Source: Pseudomonas iranensis (GTDB lineage: Bacteria; Pseudomonadota; Gammaproteobacteria; Pseudomonadales; Pseudomonadaceae). From it: a stretch of DNA of 64,000 nt. Where the stretch lies: assembly GCF_014268585.2 (NCBI RefSeq), contig NZ_CP077092.1, forward strand, positions 5,555,501 to 5,619,500, written 5' to 3'. Shown here piece after piece: positions 21,703 through 30,301 of this stretch; positions within the stretch are counted from its first letter, which is position 1; each line of letters starts with the position of its first letter. Position numbers and translations under genes: made by a program. The notes under the pieces are model-generated. The model was not told the DNA's origin and did no database searches. It saw only the letters and a list, made by a program, of their open reading frames with translations.

Positions 21703-22461
21703 TCATCTGGATTGGATAATGCTCAACCGCTCCCCCACCACCATCTCGGTAATCCAGTCCACCAGAATCGAGGTGTAGGCCTGCTGCGACACCGGGTCAC
21801 TCAACGCGTGATCCGCGCCATCGATGATCCGGTGGGTCAACGAGTGGGTTTGCTGACACGCGGCGCGGTAACTCATGATCGTCGCGTGGGGCACGAAATC
21901 GTCGGTTTCCGACTCCACCAATAGCACATCGCCCGTGAATTGCGAGCAGGCATGCAGGGCGCGATTGCTGTCGGCGCGCACCAGCGTGCCGCGATAATCG
22001 CGCAGGTCGGCCTTGTCCAGATCGCGTTTGGGCGTGTGCCATTGCTCGTCGCGGTACAGCGCCGGTACGCGCAGCGCCAGCCAGCGCACCGGGCGCAGTG
22101 ACGTCAGGATCGAGGCCAGATAGCCGCCATAACTGGTGCCGACCACGGCGATCGCCGAAGTGTCGAGGGCCGGGTGCGCCAGCAAGCGATCGTAGGCCGC
22201 CAGCAAATCTCGCAGATTGTCTTCACGGGTCACGCGGGTCAGCGGGATTCCGGTGCCGCCGGTATGCCCGCGCAGGTCGAAAGTCAGGCATACGCAACCC
22301 AGGCCGGCGATGCCTTTGGCCCGTTCCAGATCACGTTCCTGACTGCCGCCCCAACCGTGCACAAACAACACCCCCGGGACTTTCGATTTGGGACTGAGAA
22401 AAGTCCCGCTCATCTGTTCGTCATCAATGTCGATTTGAATGCTTTCGCTTCTAGCCGTCAT
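21703..22461 (-). CDS. Alpha/beta hydrolase
   Basis: A 252-aa hydrolase of the dienelactone-hydrolase/prolyl-oligopeptidase kind. The oxyanion region is VHGWGGS, the nucleophile elbow is GTSYGG with Ser at residue 110, the acid is in ESETDDFVPH, and the catalytic His is in GADHALSDP. The substrate is unknown. Its start overlaps the 3' end of the upstream DUF3182 gene by 11 nt, so the two are translated together and probably act in one pathway. Confidence 0.85.
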   Translation of the reverse strand: MTARSESIQIDIDDEQMSGTFLSPKSKVPGVLFVHGWGGSQERDLERAKGIAGLGCVCLTFDLRGHTGGTGIPLTRVTREDNLRDLLAAYDRLLAHPALDTSAIAVVGTSYGGYLASILTSLRPVRWLALRVPALYRDEQWHTPKRDLDKADLRDYRGTLVRADSNRALHACSQFTGDVLLVESETDDFVPHATIMSYRAACQQTHSLTHRIIDGADHALSDPVSQQAYTSILVDWITEMVVGERLSIIQSR

Positions 22462-23560
22462 AGGATTGGACCGTCACATATTTGAGAAGAAACGCGCTGT
22501 TTTCAGCCGGACCGCGATAGACCTCGATGGCGTCCGCCGGCAGCGCCTGATCGGTATAGGTCTCCACCGACGACACGCGAATCGCGCGCATCTGTGGATC
22601 GTTGACGAAGCTCTGCAGCGCCGCCACTTCGGCGCTGCTGGCACCGCCCATGCGCCAGGATTGTTCGAGCACGCCGCTGCGCGGGTTGCCGCTAGCGTCG
22701 AGGCCCTGGGCGATATCGTAATTGCGCCGCGAGGCGAAGAAGCGCGGGTAAGCTTCGTTGGCGGCACTGTCGAAGACCTGCGCCTGCTCGATGGCCAGAC
22801 GCACATCATCAGGCAGATCCAGCGCGAGCAATTGGTCATAGCCCCCTTGCACCACCAGCAGATTCGAACCGCCGTAGACCTCTTCGCCCTGGCCGTCCTC
22901 GGTCAAGTATTGATCACCACAGTAGCTCAACACTTTGCCGCCGATGAACGACTGGCCGACGCTGTGGGTGACGACGTTGCTCAAGTCCTGCTCCAGCACT
23001 ACGCCGTCCTTGAACAGATTTTGCGCCTCGGGCCGCGCGAGGATCTCATCGAACGCGTCGAGGCTTTTGATCACTTCCTGACCGCGACCGGCGCAAGCGT
23101 GAACCGGCTTCAAGCGAATCGGCCCGGCGTACAGCAGATGTTCGGCGGCGGGCCGTGCATCTTCCAGGGCAAATACGCTGAGACCGTCGAGCACAACGTT
23201 GCGCACCCGTTCCGAAAACAGCGGCGACCAGCCCTGCGGCGCCTGCGCCAGATGACTGCGCAAACCGTGGCTGATGGCTTTGGTGCAGATGAAATCGTAT
23301 TCGACGTAACCGCCCCACAAGTCATCGGGGCCGTTGATGCCAAGTGCTTGCGCGTGGGCCGCGCCGACGATGGTTTGTGTTGGCAGCAGATAGAGGTCGC
23401 GGCCCGAATGTTTGGCCGGGTCGTAACTGCCGCCGAATTTGCAACCGAGAATCTGCGCCAGCCAGCGCGCCAGAGCCTTGTTGGTCTCGACTTCATGTTG
23501 CGGCGCCTCGGCACGCACCGAATGGGCCACGACGATTTTGTTGCTGGGTGTCGGGGTCAT
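22451..23560 (-). CDS. DUF3182 family protein (ATP-grasp-like)
   Basis: A 369-aa protein I assign to DUF3182. The central part has an ATP-grasp look: PIRLKPVHACAGRGQEVI resembles the lysine and glycine-rich loop, then VVLEQDLSNVVTHSVGQSFI and the surrounding strands; a ligase role is possible but not demonstrated. Start at 23560 (MTPTPSN) is preceded by AAGGGGAA; an in-frame start 11 codons upstream is less well placed. It is coupled to the alpha/beta hydrolase gene by an 11-nt overlap. Upstream, about 190 nt reach back to a REP doublet. Confidence 0.72.
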   Translation of the reverse strand: MTPTPSNKIVVAHSVRAEAPQHEVETNKALARWLAQILGCKFGGSYDPAKHSGRDLYLLPTQTIVGAAHAQALGINGPDDLWGGYVEYDFICTKAISHGLRSHLAQAPQGWSPLFSERVRNVVLDGLSVFALEDARPAAEHLLYAGPIRLKPVHACAGRGQEVIKSLDAFDEILARPEAQNLFKDGVVLEQDLSNVVTHSVGQSFIGGKVLSYCGDQYLTEDGQGEEVYGGSNLLVVQGGYDQLLALDLPDDVRLAIEQAQVFDSAANEAYPRFFASRRNYDIAQGLDASGNPRSGVLEQSWRMGGASSAEVAALQSFVNDPQMRAIRVSSVETYTDQALPADAIEVYRGPAENSAFLLKYVTVQSYDG

Positions 23561-23749
23561 GCGTTCCCCTTTTATCAGTCGATGGGTTCTCAAAGGAAAT
23601 TGCAGAGATCAGGCCAATCAGCGATCCCCACGAACCGCCCGATAATCGGGAGCCTGCCGTGACTGTGCTGGCATGAAGCCTGTTTCAAACTGCACGACGG
23701 CGCGCAAAACTCCGGCAAATTGCACGATCTGTCATCCTGCCGCGATCAT

Positions 23750-23838
23750 TGTGGGAGCGAGCCTGCTCGCGAAAGCGTAGTGTCAGCCGACTACAATTCT
23801 GTAGATCCAGCGCCTTCGCGAGCAGGCTCGCTCCCACA
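23750..23838. repeat. REP doublet (long type)
   Basis: 89 bp; GTGGGAG ends outward. Its last base directly precedes the stop codon (minus strand) of the GlxA-type regulator gene at 23839. Confidence 0.92.
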
Positions 23839-24840
23839 TTAGTTCATCGTCGTTCTGGGAGCGGGGTTCAGACCAAACCGCCCCCGGTACTCACTCGGCC
23901 CCAGCCCGGTAATCTTCTTGAAAATCGCACGAAACGCGCCCGGATCCTGATAGCCCACCGTCCAGGCAATGTGGTCGATCGTGCCATTGCTGAACTCGAG
24001 CATTTCTCGCGCTTTACCAACCCGCAGGTGCTGGCAATATTCGGTCGGTTTCAAGCCTGTCGCGGCGCGGAATCGGCGCAGGAAAGTGCGTTCTTCCAGG
24101 CCCGCGCGCTCGGCCATCGCGTTCAGCGAAACATCCGTCGCCCCGGTGCTTTGCAGCCAGTGCTGGACCTTGAGAATCGCCGCGTCGCCATGGCTGAGGA
24201 TCGGTGCGAAATTGCTTCCGCATTCACTGGCGCTGTCGCTGTGTTCCATCACCAGAAAACGCGCGGTCGCGGTGGCGATGCTCGGGCCAAGCAAGCGATC
24301 GACCAGACGCAGTCCCAGTTCCGACCAGGCCATCAGCCCCGCCGTGGTGATCAGGTCACCGTCGTCGACAATCGGCGTGTCGGCCTTGAGTTTGATCTTC
24401 GGGTAACGCTCGGCAAACGCCTGGGCCGAGGTCCAGTGGGTGGTGGCGCTGCGACCGTCGAGCAAGCCGCTTTCAGCGAGCATCAACGAGCCCACACAAA
24501 CACCACCGAGGGTCGCGCCGTGTGCATGCTGATCGCGCAGCCATTGCGCAAGACTCGCGGTCATCTGCGCCGCATCGAACCCGCCGAGAGACGGCGGAAT
24601 CAGCACGGCAAGCAAAACGTCCTCGTCGCCCGGATGACTGTCGTAAACCCGCGTCGGCAACTGCTCGCCCTCGACCTGCCAGTGACTGACCCGCAGCAAG
24701 GGCAATTGCACAGCCTGATACTCGGCGGCAATGCGGTTGGCCACCGCGAACAGGTCGGTCAGACCGTGCACCGCCGCCAGTTGCGCGCCGGGGTAAATCA
24801 GCACGCCCAGTTCAGCGGTGGCGGCTCTTTGTGCAGCCAT
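23839..24840 (-). CDS. GlxA-type transcriptional regulator (DJ-1/PfpI plus AraC)
   Basis: A 333-aa regulator. The N-terminal half (1 to about 190) is a DJ-1/PfpI glutamine-amidotransferase-like sensor with GVCVGSLMLAESGLL around the nucleophile-position Cys. The C-terminal half is an AraC DNA-binding domain with two helix-turn-helix segments (LNAMAERAGLEERTFLRRF and HIAWTVGYQDPGAFRAIFKK). Start at 24840 follows GGGGGAAAA; the TTG 12 codons upstream was passed over. It is transcribed divergently from the cysteine hydrolase gene, 101 nt away, which is its likely target. Confidence 0.9.
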   Translation of the reverse strand: MAAQRAATAELGVLIYPGAQLAAVHGLTDLFAVANRIAAEYQAVQLPLLRVSHWQVEGEQLPTRVYDSHPGDEDVLLAVLIPPSLGGFDAAQMTASLAQWLRDQHAHGATLGGVCVGSLMLAESGLLDGRSATTHWTSAQAFAERYPKIKLKADTPIVDDGDLITTAGLMAWSELGLRLVDRLLGPSIATATARFLVMEHSDSASECGSNFAPILSHGDAAILKVQHWLQSTGATDVSLNAMAERAGLEERTFLRRFRAATGLKPTEYCQHLRVGKAREMLEFSNGTIDHIAWTVGYQDPGAFRAIFKKITGLGPSEYRGRFGLNPAPRTTMN

Positions 24841-24941
24841 TGTCAGTTTTCCCCCGTCTATTGTCGGTGCGGCCAATCCTCGAATCCTCGGCCAGCGTCA
24901 ATACTGAGACCACACCCAATCACTGCCTCGAGGACAATCCC

Positions 24942-25496
24942 ATGGCCAAGCAAGCGCTCATCGTAGTCGATATCCAGAACGACTACTTCCCCCAAGGCAA
25001 GTGGCCGCTGGTCGGCGCCGACGCCGCTGCGGACAACGCCGCACGGCTGATCGCAGCCTTTCGCGCAGCGGGCGATCCGGTGGTGCACATTCGGCATGAA
25101 TTCACTTCCGACGAGGCACCGTTTTTCACTCCCGGCTCCGAGGGCGCGAAACTGCATCCGAAAGTGCTCAACCATGCCGATGAGCCGGTGGTGCTCAAGC
25201 ACTTCGTCAACTCGTTCCGTGAAACCGAACTGAAAGCGGTGCTAGACGAACAAGGCATCACCGACCTGGTGGTGGTCGGCAGCATGAGCCATATGTGCGT
25301 CGATGGCATCACCCGCGCGGCGGCGGACATGGGTTACAGCGTGACCGTGATTCACGATGCCTGCGCCAGCCGTGATCTGGAATTCAACGGCCTGACGGTG
25401 CCGGCCGCCCACGTGCACGCAGCCTTCATGGCGGCGCTGGGTTTCGCCTATGCCAGCGTGGTATCGACTGAGCAGTTCCTGGGCAGCAACGCCTAG
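24942..25496 (+). CDS. Cysteine hydrolase, isochorismatase/nicotinamidase family
   Basis: A 184-aa cytosolic hydrolase with the full catalytic triad: Asp in VVDIQNDYF, Lys in VVLKHFVNSF, and Cys in SMSHMCVD. A cis-peptide-type VVVGSM precedes the Cys. Such enzymes hydrolyse C-N or C-O bonds in nicotinamide, pyrazinamide, isochorismate or related compounds; the substrate is not determinable. The MAKQAL start is preceded by GAGGACAA. Divergence from a GlxA-type regulator suggests an inducible catabolic step. It ends just before a terminator at 25517-25541. Confidence 0.9.
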   Translation: MAKQALIVVDIQNDYFPQGKWPLVGADAAADNAARLIAAFRAAGDPVVHIRHEFTSDEAPFFTPGSEGAKLHPKVLNHADEPVVLKHFVNSFRETELKAVLDEQGITDLVVVGSMSHMCVDGITRAAADMGYSVTVIHDACASRDLEFNGLTVPAAHVHAAFMAALGFAYASVVSTEQFLGSNA

Positions 25497-25558: not shown

Positions 25559-25617
25559 CTCACGCGTGAGTCATTGATGGCACTTTGCATTGGTTGTAGT
25601 GTGGCCCACGCGTGAGA
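25559..25617 (+). promoter_or_regulatory. yjf-type operon promoter bracketed by two identical palindromes
   Basis: CTCACGCGTGAG (25559-25570) is a perfect 12-bp palindrome, and its core CACGCGTGAG recurs at 25608-25617, centres 47 bp apart. Between them are TTGATG (25574-25579) and TAGTGT (25597-25602), 17 nt apart, a plausible sigma70 promoter. So one copy abuts the -35 and the other covers the start of transcription, 31 nt before the first gene. A repressor or looping regulator is suggested. No regulator gene is adjacent to name it. Confidence 0.65.
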
Positions 25618-25639: not shown

Positions 25640-26308
25640 ATGACAAGCCGCACTCCGACGCCTGCCGCAGCCAGCCCCAAGGGCGAGCGTGGCAAGACGT
25701 CAGCGAAAAAACCGTCGAGCTTCTACATGAAGCAGATGCGCGCAGGCCTGGCCGCCGCCGGTTATGTGAAACACGAAACTTGGGTGCTTCCGGAAAACCG
25801 AAGCTTGCTCAAGCAAATGGAGCAACAGCTACGCCAACCGATTCTGGCTGGCTCTTTCATGTCGGAGAAATACATGAGCGCAGGCAACAACTGGACCATC
25901 GACAGCCTCTTCAATGCCCTCAAGGCGCTGGACGAGGTGGCTTCCCAAGAGATTTCGCTGTCCCTGATCCAGAGCTCCGAACCGAGCATCAAGCTGGAAA
26001 TGAACGAATTCGGCGGCCTGCCGATTCACATCGCCCTGGCCGGCCAGCAGATCATCGTCGACACCGTGCTGGTGGACATCGATTCGATCAGCAATGTCCA
26101 GGCGTTCAACGATGCCGTGCTGCGCAGCCGCGAGATGTTCCCGCTGTCGTCGATCGGGATCGAGTCGATGCCCAATGGCCAGACCGTCTACAACATGTTC
26201 GGCGCCCTCAGCGCAGACTCGAGCCTGACCAACGTCGTTACCGAGGTGAAAACCCTGGTCGACAATGTGCAGCGCGCCAGCGAAGCCTTCGAACACTTCT
26301 TCAAGTAA
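25640..26308 (+). CDS. yjfI: YjfI-like DUF2170 protein
   Basis: A 222-aa predicted cytosolic protein. After a low-complexity N terminus rich in Ser/Thr/Lys/Pro, about 170 residues match the DUF2170 pattern seen in E. coli YjfI: FYMKQMRAGLAAAGYVKHE, then WTIDSLFNALKALDEV, and a Phe/Val-rich C-terminal end. No enzyme motif is seen. It heads a six-gene set in the order of E. coli yjfI-J-K-L-M-C, 17 nt ahead of the PspA-like gene. E. coli YjfI is shorter, so the N-terminal 40 residues or so are an addition. Confidence 0.8.
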   Translation: MTSRTPTPAAASPKGERGKTSAKKPSSFYMKQMRAGLAAAGYVKHETWVLPENRSLLKQMEQQLRQPILAGSFMSEKYMSAGNNWTIDSLFNALKALDEVASQEISLSLIQSSEPSIKLEMNEFGGLPIHIALAGQQIIVDTVLVDIDSISNVQAFNDAVLRSREMFPLSSIGIESMPNGQTVYNMFGALSADSSLTNVVTEVKTLVDNVQRASEAFEHFFK

Positions 26309-26325
26309 TCAACAGGGAATATCCA

Positions 26326-27024
26326 ATGACTCAGTCCATCTGGAGCAAGTTGTTCACCGCACTGCGCGGCGGCGCCAATGAAGTCGGCGAAGCCATCGCC
26401 GACCAGCAGGCCCTGCGCATCCTCGATCAGGAAATCCGCGACGCCGACACCGCGCTGTCCAATGCCCGCCGCGAACTGGTGACGATCATGGCCAAGCACA
26501 AACTGGCCGCCGACCGCGTCAGCGAATACGACGCCAAGATCAAGGACCTCGAAGCCAAGGCTGTAGCCGCGTTGAATGCCGGCCGTGAAGACCTGGCGCT
26601 GGAAGTGGCCGAAGCGATTTCGACCCTGACCAACGACCTCGCTGCCGAGAAGAAACTCAGCGATGAATTCGGCGCCTACGCCGACAACATGCGCAAAGAC
26701 ATCAGCAAAGCCGAATCGCGAATCAAGAGCCTGCGCCAGCAAGTGGACATGGCCAAGGCCCGCGACAGCGTGCAGAAAGCCCAGGTCAGCGCCTCGATTG
26801 CCAGCGGCGGCGCCAACGGCAAACTGGAAACCGCGGTCGGCACCCTGAACCGCCTGCAAGCCAAGCAGCAGCAACGCGCTGCCGAACTGAACGCCGCAGA
26901 CGAACTGGCCGACGCCTCCACCGGCAACGACCTGGAACGCAAACTGCGCGACGCCGGCATCACGCCGAACGAAGGCAGCGCCAATGCGATCCTTGAGCGG
27001 CTGAAACAGAAGTCCGCGCAGTAA
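26326..27024 (+). CDS. yjfJ: PspA/IM30-family protein (YjfJ-like)
   Basis: A 232-aa almost wholly helical protein: PspA/IM30 family. It begins with an amphipathic MTQSIWSKLFTALRGGANEV, followed by long coiled-coil stretches (about residues 25-170) rich in Ala, Glu, Lys and Asp. PspA/Vipp1-type proteins bind the inner membrane and polymerise as ESCRT-III relatives to maintain membrane integrity. Start follows CAGGGAAT. In E. coli the matching yjfJ is the second gene of the same operon. A REP doublet separates this gene from the next. Confidence 0.9.
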   Translation: MTQSIWSKLFTALRGGANEVGEAIADQQALRILDQEIRDADTALSNARRELVTIMAKHKLAADRVSEYDAKIKDLEAKAVAALNAGREDLALEVAEAISTLTNDLAAEKKLSDEFGAYADNMRKDISKAESRIKSLRQQVDMAKARDSVQKAQVSASIASGGANGKLETAVGTLNRLQAKQQQRAAELNAADELADASTGNDLERKLRDAGITPNEGSANAILERLKQKSAQ

Positions 27025-27040
27025 TGACTGAACGGTAACT

Positions 27041-27130
27041 TGTGGGAGCGAGCCTGCTCGCGAAAGCGTCGTGACAGTCAAATAATCGAGTGACTGACAC
27101 AACCCATTCGCGAGCAGGCTCGCTCCCACA
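27041..27130. repeat. REP doublet (long type) inside the yjf-type operon
   Basis: 90 bp; GTGGGAG ends outward. Sits in the 210-nt gap between the PspA-like and DUF2491 genes. The remaining part of that gap has no further gene. Confidence 0.92.
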
Positions 27131-27234
27131 TGGTTTTGCGGCGTAATTGCCTCTGCTCGTTCACCGCTTCGCCCGTTACACTACCGCCACTTTTTCACCC
27201 CCGAACACCTCCACCCGCTTCAAGGAACGTACCC

Positions 27235-27885
27235 ATGGGATGGTTTAAAGACTTGCTCGGCACCAGCAATTGGCAGACCGCTGCGCCAACGAGCACCGGC
27301 GCCAGCGGTCCACTGGGCATGGCACAAGGCAAAGGCGTGCGCTTCGACACGACCCTGGCATTGCTGCTGGAAGGCTCGACCTCGGTGCGGGTGCCATTCG
27401 ATCAAGCGGTGTGGAGCGCCGGCTGGGTCGATCTCGGCCAGTCCAACAAGCTGCACCGCTACTACATGAACGAAGAGGATTTCTGGGTGCAGATCCACGT
27501 CACCGGCGACGATCAGGTCGAGTCGGTCACCCTGCTCAATTACCTCAGCTATGTAACGGTCAACAGTGACGCCGAACTGCAGCGTCTGGCCGGCCCCAAC
27601 AGCCTGATCGGTCTGCCGACCTACACCCACGACGGTGTTGAATACACCCGCGAATGGGGCACCGAGTTGCATCAGACCGAACTGGTGCCAATGACCGAAC
27701 ACGTGGTCAACCCGGACGAGTCCTACACCATCAAGCACCACGCCATGCTGTATGCCCGCGACACCGGCCTGACCGATCGCCGCGAACTGCTGCTGTTCTC
27801 CGTCGAACAGGACGAAGAAGGCACCGTCAGCCTGAGCACCTCGCTGGGCATCTCGCTGTACACGACTGATTTGAGCGCCATTTAA
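27235..27885 (+). CDS. yjfK: DUF2491 protein (YjfK-like)
   Basis: A 216-aa protein of DUF2491. It opens MGWFKDLLG, with RFDTTLALLLEGSTSVRVP and a long beta-rich middle (QIHVTGDDQVESVTLLNYLS) typical of YjfK. No signal peptide or membrane segment, so likely cytosolic or at the membrane surface. Start follows a clear AAGGAACG. It is the third gene of the yjf-type operon, after the REP doublet. Function unknown. Confidence 0.85.
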   Translation: MGWFKDLLGTSNWQTAAPTSTGASGPLGMAQGKGVRFDTTLALLLEGSTSVRVPFDQAVWSAGWVDLGQSNKLHRYYMNEEDFWVQIHVTGDDQVESVTLLNYLSYVTVNSDAELQRLAGPNSLIGLPTYTHDGVEYTREWGTELHQTELVPMTEHVVNPDESYTIKHHAMLYARDTGLTDRRELLLFSVEQDEEGTVSLSTSLGISLYTTDLSAI

Positions 27886-27900
27886 AAAAGGAAGTTTTTC

Positions 27901-28326
27901 ATGCTGGAAGTCTTGGCCGTTTCCCTGAACAAAACCGCGCTGGTCGGTTTTGTCGTCTACCTGATCGGCGCCGTGTTGCTGTTCATGCTGTTTCAATTCG
28001 TCTACACGCGCATTACCGCGCACAAGGAATTCGAGCTGATCCGCGCCGGCAACACTGCCGCCGCCATTGCCCTGTCCGGGGCGATCATCGGTTTCGCGAT
28101 TCCGGCGAGCAACGTGATCGCGTATTCGGTCAACGTGCTCGACTTCGTCCTCTGGGCGGTCATCGCCGCCGTCGTGCAATTGCTGGCATTCGTTGCGACC
28201 GGGCTGGTGCTCAAGGGCACGTCCCAGCGCATCGCCAACGGCGAAGTCGCCGCCGGCATTTATGTCGCCGCCGTGGCGATCAGCGTCGGCATGCTCAATG
28301 CCGCGTGCATGACCCCGTCCCACTGA
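27901..28326 (+). CDS. yjfL: DUF350 membrane protein (YjfL-like)
   Basis: A 141-aa inner-membrane protein with four hydrophobic segments (about 15-35, 55-75, 82-105, 117-137). The DUF350 signature is visible: ELIRAGNTAAAIALSGAIIGFAI. Start is preceded by AAAGGAAG. It lies 15 nt after the DUF2491 gene and 18 nt before DUF1190, so it is part of the same transcript. E. coli yjfL occupies the same place. No transport or enzyme function is known for the family. Confidence 0.9.
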   Translation: MLEVLAVSLNKTALVGFVVYLIGAVLLFMLFQFVYTRITAHKEFELIRAGNTAAAIALSGAIIGFAIPASNVIAYSVNVLDFVLWAVIAAVVQLLAFVATGLVLKGTSQRIANGEVAAGIYVAAVAISVGMLNAACMTPSH

Positions 28327-28344
28327 CCGGCAGGAAGCCTCTCG

Positions 28345-29040
28345 ATGAAACGCAGCAAATACGTGCAATTGTCCCTCGCCGCATCGGTGGCGATGGCGAT
28401 TTCCGGTGAAGCAGCGGCGCTGGATCAGCCGCGCAATTTCCAGAGCGTTGAACAGTGTGTCGACGCCGAAGTGGCCGCCGATCTCTGCTCCAGCGCCTAC
28501 GTCGCCGCACTGAACGAGCACCGGCGTATCGCCCCGGCCTACACCGACAAGGCCAAGTGCGACGCAGACTTTGCCGCTGGCTGGTGTCAGAAAAATTCCG
28601 ATGGTCGTTTCGTGCCGAAACTCGGCGGCTTCAAAGTGCCGGGCAATGCCGAGACGCCGCAGGATCTCGATGCCATCGCCAATTCGCAAATGCCGGCGGG
28701 CGACACCAGCAGCAGCGCAAGCCACGGCGGCTCGCACTATTCCGGTGGCTCAGGTGGCGGCGGCAATGGCTGGCTGACCGGCTGGCTGATCGGCAACGCA
28801 ATGAGCAACAACGCCGAACGCACCGTTTACCGTGATCGCGAAACGCGCCAGCCGTACAACACCTCAACGCAGTACCGCCGAGCTGACACAACCTCGCGCA
28901 GCCAGTCGGATTACGAGAGCAGCAAGAGCAAACCGGTGAACGTTGCGTCGTCGACTTCGCGCGGCGGCTTCGGCAGCCAGTCCAGCGCCCGCAGCGGTTG
29001 GGGTGGCTGGGGCAGCAGTTCCGGACGCTCGAGCAGCTGA
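28345..29040 (+). CDS. yjfM: DUF1190 exported protein (YjfM-like)
   Basis: A 231-aa exported protein. The first 25 residues are a signal peptide (ends GEAAALDQ). The mature part has a Cys-containing half (FQSVEQCVDAEVAADLCSS..), then a Gly/Ser-rich tail of low complexity (GGSGGGGNGWLTGWLIGNAM, then repeats of Ser, Arg and Gly to the end). This is the DUF1190 pattern of E. coli YjfM. It follows yjfL by 18 nt and precedes the ATP-grasp gene by one base. It may be a periplasmic or outer-membrane partner of the YjfL/PspA-like proteins. Confidence 0.85.
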   Translation: MKRSKYVQLSLAASVAMAISGEAAALDQPRNFQSVEQCVDAEVAADLCSSAYVAALNEHRRIAPAYTDKAKCDADFAAGWCQKNSDGRFVPKLGGFKVPGNAETPQDLDAIANSQMPAGDTSSSASHGGSHYSGGSGGGGNGWLTGWLIGNAMSNNAERTVYRDRETRQPYNTSTQYRRADTTSRSQSDYESSKSKPVNVASSTSRGGFGSQSSARSGWGGWGSSSGRSSS

Positions 29041-29041
29041 C

Positions 29042-30199
29042 ATGAAAAAGATCCACTGCGCCGAGCGCCCCGACTGGAAACACACCGCCGAAAGCCTCGG
29101 TTTCCTGTTCCACACCATCGACGACGAACCGTACTGGGACGAAAGCGCCTACTACCAGTTCAGCCTGGCGCAGATCGAAAACGATCTCGAAGATCCGACC
29201 ACCGAACTGCACGAGATGTGCATGGATCTGGTTGATCGCGTCGTCAACAGCGAGGAGTTGCTCGATCGCCTCAGCATCCCGGCGGCGTACTACGACATGA
29301 TCCGCACCTCCTGGCGCGAGGGTCATCCGCATCTGTACGGTCGCATGGACTTTTCCTACAGCGGCAACGGGCCGGCGAAACTGCTGGAACTCAACTACGA
29401 CACGCCGACCAGCCTTTATGAGGCGGCGGCGTTTCAATGGGGCTGGCTGGAACAATGCATCGAGCGTGGCACGCTGCCGCCGCATGCTGACCAGTTCAAC
29501 AGCATCGACACCAAGCTGCATCAGGCCTTCGCCGAATTGCAGTTGAAGCGGCCGTTCTACTTTGCCTCGATGAAGGACTCGGTCGAGGACAAAGGCACCA
29601 CCGACTATCTGCGGCTGATCGCGGAAAAGGTCGGCATCGAATCACGCCACATCGATATCGAAGACATCGGCCTGACGGCTGAGGGCCGTTTCGTCGATCT
29701 GCAGGATCGCTGGATCCCGCATCTGTTCAAGCTGCACGCCTGGGAATTCATCTTCCACGAACCGTTCGGCGCGGCGATCGCCGAATGCGATACGCAGTTT
29801 TTCGAGCCGGCGTGGAAGGCGATCCTGTCCAACAAGGGTGCGCTGCCGCTGCTGTGGGAAGCGCACAAGGAACATCCGAATCTGCTCGCTGCGCACCTTG
29901 ATCCGAATCCGCAGAGTGCGGTGCCGAAGGGCTGGGTGCGCAAGCCGTACTTTTCCCGCGAAGGTGCCAACATCGAACTGCAAACAGCGGAAGGTCTGAT
30001 CATCAAAGAGGACGGGCCCTACACCGACGCGCCATTCATCCTGCAGGAGTTCGCACCGCTGCCGAAGTTTGGCGACAGCTACACGCTGATTGGCTCGTGG
30101 GTGATTGGTGATGAGGCGGCAGGGATTGGTGTGCGCGAGGACAACAGTCTGATCACCAGGGACTCCAGCCGCTTCCTGCCGCATCTGATTCTGGATTAA
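29042..30199 (+). CDS. yjfC: Glutathionylspermidine-synthase-like ATP-grasp protein (YjfC-like)
   Basis: A 385-aa protein of the glutathionylspermidine synthase C-terminal (ATP-grasp) family, matching E. coli YjfC (387 aa). Signatures include RMDFSYSGNGPAKLLELNYD, TPTSLYEAAAFQWGW, and PAWKAILSNKGALPLLWE, then FILQEFAPLP. It lacks the N-terminal amidase domain of full Gsp. By family it forms an amide bond using ATP between a carboxylate and an amine (polyamine or peptide); the substrate is not known. Final gene of the yjf-type operon, one base after DUF1190. Confidence 0.88.
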   Translation: MKKIHCAERPDWKHTAESLGFLFHTIDDEPYWDESAYYQFSLAQIENDLEDPTTELHEMCMDLVDRVVNSEELLDRLSIPAAYYDMIRTSWREGHPHLYGRMDFSYSGNGPAKLLELNYDTPTSLYEAAAFQWGWLEQCIERGTLPPHADQFNSIDTKLHQAFAELQLKRPFYFASMKDSVEDKGTTDYLRLIAEKVGIESRHIDIEDIGLTAEGRFVDLQDRWIPHLFKLHAWEFIFHEPFGAAIAECDTQFFEPAWKAILSNKGALPLLWEAHKEHPNLLAAHLDPNPQSAVPKGWVRKPYFSREGANIELQTAEGLIIKEDGPYTDAPFILQEFAPLPKFGDSYTLIGSWVIGDEAAGIGVREDNSLITRDSSRFLPHLILD

Positions 30200-30212
30200 G
30201 ACGAAGTTACCT

Positions 30213-30301
30213 TGTGGGAGCGACCCTGCTCGCGAAAGCGTCCTGTCAGTTAGTGGTGCGCCGACTGATCTGACGCCTTCGCGAGCAGGCTCGCTCCCAC
30301 A
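30213..30301. repeat. REP doublet (long type)
   Basis: 89 bp, GTGGGAG ends outward. The left arm has GAGCGACCCTGC where other copies read GAGCGAGCCTGC, so it is a slightly diverged copy. It is the last REP doublet in the window; none follows to 64 kb. Confidence 0.9.

Follow-up and report, generated by a model that had tools for sequence, protein, structure and literature searches.

A yjf-type PspA operon of Pseudomonas iranensis: a probable autorepressor and a probable acceptor of its ATP-grasp ligase

We analysed a stretch of 64,000 nt from Pseudomonas iranensis (contig NZ_CP077092.1, positions 5,555,501 to 5,619,500 of the forward strand), here called the window, in which positions 25640-30199 are occupied by six genes on one strand in the order of E. 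coli K-12 yjfI-J-K-L-M-C. The explanation that we favour, at slightly better than even confidence, is that of an autorepressed YjfI-J-K-L-M-C type PspA module with a ligase that caps the DUF1190 protein. The operon as given is an already described system. Beyond what was found in print are the link between an N-terminal extension of gene 1 and a pair of putative operators, and the pairing of the ligase with a tail protein.

According to this explanation, gene 1 would be a fusion of a small DNA-binding domain with a CesT/Tir-like chaperone domain that binds two palindromes flanking the presumed -35/-10 region and represses its own promoter, until envelope stress or a client protein might relieve the repression. 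The PspA-like protein would coat or repair the inner membrane, as its family suggests. The ATP-grasp enzyme would recognise the R-x-G-F-G tail of its DUF1190-type neighbour prior to export and attach spermidine, or an amine related to it, to the carboxylate at the C-terminus, a chemistry taken only from the title of a paper and from the RefSeq name for YgiC/YjfC. After export, the polycationic C-terminal cap might bind anionic envelope surfaces. DUF350 is a presumed membrane partner, joined in relatives by an ion channel and a rhomboid protein.

The six genes, with positions in the window, are:

25640..26308, + strand: gene 1, YjfI/BacA-like, N-terminal extension plus DUF2170 (CesT/Tir-like fold); DUF2170 150.9 bits
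26326..27024, + strand: gene 2, PspA/IM30 family, YjfJ type; PspA_IM30 152.5 bits versus a cut-off of 33.9
27235..27885, + strand: gene 3, DUF2491 (YjfK); 131.8 bits, predicted model mostly beta
27901..28326, + strand: gene 4, DUF350 (YjfL) family; 119 bits
28345..29040, + strand: gene 5, DUF1190 (YjfM), predicted exported, proposed acceptor; PF06693 87.8 bits versus a cut-off of 22
29042..30199, + strand: gene 6, ATP-grasp ligase (YjfC), 385 amino acids (aa); GSP_synth PF03738 476 bits

The first positions are the assigned starts, and every protein exceeds its Pfam cut-off, in agreement with a preliminary description of this DNA that had named six same-strand genes in yjf order. The spacing of "mostly 1-18 nt" given there fits four of the five intergenic gaps (17, 210, 15, 18, and 1 nt), the second being 210 nt long. 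Gene 2 is below the cut-off of the equivalog model for classical PspA, TIGR02977 (21.2 versus 242.95 bits), and a fold comparison with the gene 3 model gave no confident match. The idea that a PspA module at the envelope works with a cytosolic ligase finds support in the families, the gene context, and the literature. The preliminary description had overlooked the gene 1 extension and its operators as well as the loss of the genes for the channel and the rhomboid protein.

The gene 1 extension and the palindromes at the promoter

In Pseudomonas, an extension precedes the DUF2170 domain of gene 1, and two palindromes are found in front of the gene:

25559..25570, no strand: operator 1 (putative), perfect 12-bp palindrome CTCACGCGTGAG
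25574..25602, + strand: candidate promoter between the operators, TTGATG-17 nt-TAGTGT, part of a conserved TTGA-N17-TAGTGT block
25605..25616, no strand: operator 2 (putative), 12-bp site CCCACGCGTGAG, 46 bp behind operator 1
25700..25840, + strand: N-terminal extension of gene 1, predicted DNA-binding part, helix-extended-helix in the model

The 10-bp core of operator 1, TCACGCGTGA, occurs a single time in the 6.07-Mb genome. A consensus scan of the promoter region reported no sigma-70 site by the rules of that scan. For comparison, we used a main set of 82 loci, i.e. 80 named loci picked as best matches to the ligase plus two E. coli loci; 39 of them are of the fluorescens type (loci are numbered L001 and so on), and the set is biased because it was picked by ligase similarity. 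The operator pair is kept in the window and in 37 of the 39 fluorescens-type loci, whereas L071 and L077 have a decayed second site. No operator pair is present at the loci from E. coli and xanthomonads.

A separate survey found a DUF2170 gene in 27 of 369 genomes at class level and in 28 of 119 at family level. Among all DUF2170 loci examined, a paired TYACNNGTRA motif is present at 73 of the 77 loci with the gene 1 extension versus none of the 38 without it. The values are 65 of 77 versus 0 of 38 when at most one mismatch in total is allowed, and 9 of 11 versus 0 of 25 when clusters of 70% identity are counted. Random windows outside the operator region yielded no pair in 20,000 at ≤1 mismatch in total and 23 in 20,000 at ≤2. 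The pairs form two spacing classes: loci of the fluorescens yjf type mostly have a CG centre and sites 45-46 bp apart, and most other extension loci have an AT centre and sites 21-26 bp apart. An intermediate type (46 bp apart, GT and AT centres) is seen in L187 and L188. The plasmids pQBR103 and pPma4326F, which were added later, fit the same pattern of extension and operators.

The AlphaFold model of gene 1 has a helix at residues 26-39, an extended stretch, and a second helix at residues 51-65. Binding of the palindromes by gene 1 is suggested because extension and sites co-occur, and repression because the sites bracket the presumed -35/-10 region. Judged from sequence, gene 1 is probably an autorepressor of its own promoter, which would provide a concrete transcription switch for this branch of PspA systems.

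Several points weigh against this reading. The confidence of the model is modest in the extension (predicted local distance difference test 64-74 over residues 21-60), and the extension matches no Pfam family. A scan against NCBIfam, from which L173 was left out, gave matches at noise level only, apart from BacA; those to the plasmid repressor UrfF are weak (E 0.005 in L097, 0.05 in L096) and carry no weight, because ribosomal protein L25 (E 0.0004) outscores UrfF in L097. L097 and L141 have a single site only, one identity cluster supplies 43 of the 77 extension loci, and the operator motif, the spacing classes, and the tail motif described below were defined after many sequences had been inspected. 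The extension profile was built from 14 sequences and fails to recognise the N-terminal stretch of L120, a locus without operator pair that was counted as lacking the extension.

Alternatively, the operators could be the sites of another regulator, with the extension serving protein contacts only. The check for a ribbon-helix-helix fold is compatible with this: besides the Pfam and NCBIfam results it yielded a helix-extended-helix model of modest confidence, which is not a proven ribbon-helix-helix. However, extension and pair track each other across the identity clusters, and the adjacent gene for an AraC-type regulator is missing at ten loci that retain the operators, so that we regard a separate regulator as rather unlikely.

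The ligase and the tail of DUF1190-type proteins

Gene 6 consists of PF03738 alone, with no further Pfam domain. The best PDB matches are 7uk6, which is YjfC (E 1.2e-125), and 7uk8, which is YgiC. An N-terminal amidase domain is lacking, as PF03738 was the sole Pfam match and NF007801 scored 139 versus 882 bits. Seven residues (R, D, E, N, K, K, and R) are identical in 83 of 83 aligned ligases at positions 316, 318, 330, 332, 498, 533, and 598 of GspS, which we take to be ATP/Mg and substrate positions; the ATP/Mg residues, a check proposed in the preliminary description, are thus intact. The term "orphan" used there for the ligase is only partly apt, as the RefSeq name for YjfC and YgiC is peptide--spermidine ligase. 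Peptide-spermidine ligase activity has reportedly been described by Pederick and coworkers in 2023, in a paper known to us by its title. In the literature searched, the coverage of which did not extend to that paper, the natural substrate of YgiC/YjfC ligases was not found to be settled. In the reaction of the related GspS enzymes, spermidine becomes linked to glutathione at its glycine carboxylate, and a small C-terminus as acceptor is therefore the simplest reading.

DUF1190 and the ligase are both present in all 82 loci of the main set and adjacent in 81. Within a sample of 398 genomes of the phylum, 63 have DUF1190, 91 have GSP_synth, and 61 have both (overlap read by eye). The ligase is adjacent to 56 of the 68 DUF1190 matches, within 6 kb of six, and missing from the surroundings of the other six. 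The tail of DUF1190 proteins is rich in Ser, Gly, and Arg, and 114 of 116 have R-x-G-[FY]-G, or a motif close to it, at a distance of 15-31 residues from the C-terminus. In the window this tail is:

28960..29037, + strand: C-terminal tail of gene 5, RGGFGSQSSARSGWGGWGSSSGRSSS, with RGGFG starting 26 residues from the end

The tail follows the ligase also where DUF1190 itself is not recognised. At ligase loci without a Pfam match to DUF1190, the strict tail motif was found on a small neighbour in 15 of 17 cases, and the remaining two have looser tails that were seen by eye (L257, GGFG...GGS; L266, RGGFG...GGGE). The strict motif was fixed after most tails had been inspected; L015, L020, and L268, where it was found, and L257, where it was missed, had been unseen beforehand. 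None of the six DUF1190 proteins without a ligase within 6 kb has the strict motif, and three of these are from one genome (G746), the ligase of which has its own tail protein. For control, the motif was found in none of 519 background open reading frames (ORFs) and at 1 of 14 GspSA-type loci, chosen by long frames (619-673 aa) alone, where it is on a 66-aa ORF and looks spurious. L295 (without tail) and L296 (with tail) were kept apart from these counts.

Mobile elements were sampled as well. Out of 158 plasmid records matching the ligase, five were fetched (L279, L280, L281, L282, and L306), of which L281 was left out, and L305 was found by a separate search. Plasmid ligases without DUF1190 annotation are accompanied by the strict motif in Acinetobacter and by RGGL...SSGG in Deinococcus, and the DUF1190 protein of a Vibrio plasmid ends RGGWG...WGG. 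The whole module is present on the large Pseudomonas plasmids pQBR103 and pPma4326F (L305 and L306), in the former with a rhomboid gene.

For phages, 9 of 136 records with a ligase match and 5 of 133 with a YgiB match were read. At eight of the nine ligase loci a lipoprotein-type protein ending GG is encoded upstream, at a distance of one to four genes; the motif is variant or missing in five of these proteins. These eight loci (L274-L277 and L301-L304), with YgiC-like ligases, are from phages of Acinetobacter, Aeromonas, Pseudomonas, and Bacillus. Where a phage DUF1190 gene has no ligase gene next to it in the stretch read, the tail and its GG end are retained in five of five sampled cases, four of which had been unseen before the motif was fixed. 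These proteins (L278 and L297-L300) are encoded by Erwinia, Klebsiella, Cronobacter, and Citrobacter phages and have RGGFG...GG, which would suit a ligase supplied by the host.

The ends of the tails point in the same direction. The last two residues of the 116 DUF1190 proteins are GG in 68, SS in 38, GS in 9, and AT in one. After clustering at 65% identity, GG ends are present in 27 of 36 clusters versus 2.7 expected when the last 20 residues are shuffled, and [GS][GS] ends in 35 of 36 versus 10.8 expected; the observed numbers were reached in none of 5000 shuffles. A simple pattern detects a lipobox Cys in 30 of the 36 clusters. Gene context shows that the partner of the ligase is a DUF1190-type, predicted exported protein, and by the distribution of its motif the tail is a functional link to the ligase. 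The tail protein is probably also the acceptor, which would make it a likely ligase target, favoured by the evidence over the separate exported partner that had been proposed before; that it looks exported stands. If it is the acceptor, polyamine capping of exported proteins would be a defined envelope modification linked to the PspA system.

Other observations speak against an acceptor role. The window protein ends SSS, as do those of 37 of the 39 fluorescens-type loci, so that a strict Gly-Gly acceptor rule fails in the window. GG ends are found in the fluorescens-type loci L083 and L095 and in both plasmid copies, and the window tail retains RGGFG plus an internal GWGG. Three readings are conceivable for the window: Ser is accepted by its ligase, the tail undergoes trimming, or the clade drifts. 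The lipobox Cys is lacking in the window (ISGE versus ISGC in other fluorescens-type loci) and in all 14 loci that share its GWGGW tail. As DUF1190 looks exported and the ligase looks cytosolic, modification must precede export. The strict motif occurs at only three of the nine phage ligase loci, and that of phage DSS3_VP1 is without any tail protein. Furthermore, two of the six DUF1190 proteins without nearby ligase end in G or S although they lack the motif (L253, EGS; L254, KKKG).

The tail could instead serve for docking, holding the exported protein on the ligase, or on PspA/DUF350 at the membrane, while the real acceptor is another peptide. The R-x-G-F core is indeed more constant than the last residues, and ends such as the prevailing SSS of the fluorescens type, GGGE in L266, and AAT in L106 are compatible with docking. 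In contrast, an internal dock does not require the excess of terminal [GS][GS] over the shuffled tails, and the GG end is kept in phage DUF1190 proteins that have no ligase beside them. We consider docking alone unlikely and retain the acceptor reading.

Tentatively, and at somewhat less than even confidence, the results can be extended to a C-terminal polyamine-capping system shared by bacteria, plasmids, and phages. It would consist of a stand-alone ATP-grasp ligase and a mostly lipid-anchored protein with R-x-G-F-G and a small C-terminus, often Gly-Gly; phages would bring the pair or the substrate only, presumably for a host ligase, and the chaperone-repressor fusion would govern the module in Pseudomonas and some other gammaproteobacteria.

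Gene content and genomic neighbourhood

Among the 82 loci, DUF350 is present in 59, and each of DUF2170, PspA, and DUF2491 in 56. The six families occur together in 55, one of them (L120) rearranged, so that the gene-neighbourhood comparison suggested in the preliminary description came out in favour of a conserved set, in loci that were best ligase matches. In the wider genome samples, which include the genome of the window, the distribution is patchy: at class level, 4 of 185 genomes have DUF1190 and 8 of 185 have GSP_synth over the cut-off, and at genus level, 47 of 99 have GSP_synth. That YjfJ/K/L add pores or stiffen the membrane in a heat-tolerance module, with the ligase pair incidental, is very improbable: the candidate heat-tolerance operon yjfIJKL was up-regulated in E. 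coli after evolution at 45 °C (PMC12492005, 2025), but in the parts of that article consulted the authors were unable to confirm YjfK as a membrane protein, and the ligase-DUF1190 pair is present in every locus versus PspA in 56 of 82, which, as loci were chosen by ligase, says that the pair can stand alone and not that it leads.

Searches with tblastn in the 56 loci having PspA and DUF2491 revealed an ion-channel match in 31, a count that includes partial matches (61 residues in L102, 200 residues in L083) and the rearranged locus L120; five channel genes that were scanned are Ion_trans_2. A rhomboid match was found in 23 of the 56. In 20 loci, every one from Pseudomonas, the rhomboid gene lies between genes 2 and 3, and in three Alteromonadaceae loci it lies behind the ligase (L115:11233-11697, L121:11233-11697, and L127:11894-12436). 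Phage DSS3_VP1 has an Ion_trans_2 channel gene, the partner type of the bacterial operons, directly before its ligase gene (L273:2002-4161). The 14 loci with the GWGGW tail of the window have neither gene. The window operon itself has no potassium channel, the 210-nt gap being too short, and no channel search was made in the remainder of the genome. The window thus represents a reduced form and not the "complete" operon it had been taken for.

Two repetitive extragenic palindrome (REP) type elements accompany the operon:

27037..27140, no strand: REP-type inverted pair in the 210-nt gap between genes 2 and 3, where relatives have rhomboid and ion-channel genes
30208..30301, no strand: second REP-type pair just downstream of the operon, another copy of the gap element

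The pair of the gap has tens of copies across the genome. The nearest named relatives of the locus are fluorescens-complex Pseudomonas, with 98% ligase identity between the window and L053/L054. Upstream (22451-25493) are DUF3182, AraC/DJ-1-type regulator, and isochorismatase-family genes, with no relation to the operon seen. In ten fluorescens-type loci (L069, L072, L073, L076, L078, L081, L083-L085, and L095) the operon is outside the ssb/uvrA-AraC-isochorismatase neighbourhood, indicating that it moved or was re-acquired.

Comparison with known systems

The set is not the little-described system that it had been thought to be, since it is found in E. coli and in Ravi et al. 2024 (PMC11237479), and an activity of the ligase is contained in its RefSeq name. 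In the parts of Ravi et al. consulted, the third group of CesT/Tir-PspA operons is characterised by DUF350, DUF1190, DUF2491, a potassium channel, and a ligase resembling glutathionylspermidine synthetase; it has the same six families as the window, plus the channel that the window operon lacks. The word "rhomboid" is absent from its main text, and in the parts consulted no gene 1 extension, operators, or C-terminal tail were seen.

BacA of the P. aeruginosa bac operon is a DUF2170 protein, and its crystal structure (PDB 8q8o) covers the DUF2170 domain only (PMC10948618, consulted in part). Foldseek with the gene 1 model matched 8q8o and type III chaperones. According to its NCBIfam model, BacA combines the DUF2170 fold with an N-terminal part that resembles the window extension. 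Gene 1 of the window is below the cut-off of the BacA equivalog NF050185 (211 versus 300), and the bac operon differs from the window operon, no ligase being named in the parts of its description consulted (PMC10948618). The main text of that paper does not contain "ribbon-helix", "RHH", "DNA-binding", or "palindrom-".

The bifunctional GspSA (E. coli gss) has a homologous synthetase domain that shares the seven residues R, D, E, N, K, K, and R with the window enzyme. In contrast, E392, T441, and D610 of GspS are replaced by D, L, and R in 83 of 83 YjfC-type ligases, and GspSA-type loci are without tail proteins, apart from the spurious-looking ORF. Spermidine is also conjugated to the C-termini of SUMO and ubiquitin, at the C-terminal Gly-Gly carboxylate, with a mass shift of +127.147 Da for spermidine, according to the parts of PMC12270671 consulted; E1/E2 enzymes act there, whereas a single ATP-grasp enzyme is proposed here, and no common ancestry is claimed.

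The closest counterparts are yjfI-J-K-L-M-C and ygiB-ygiC of E. coli. The former has the six families in the order of the window, and the pair of DUF1190 and ligase is common to both. YjfM and YgiB possess the tail motif and a GG end, whereas the window protein ends SSS. E. coli YjfI (133 aa) has no N-terminal extension and its promoter no operator pair, whereas the window has both.

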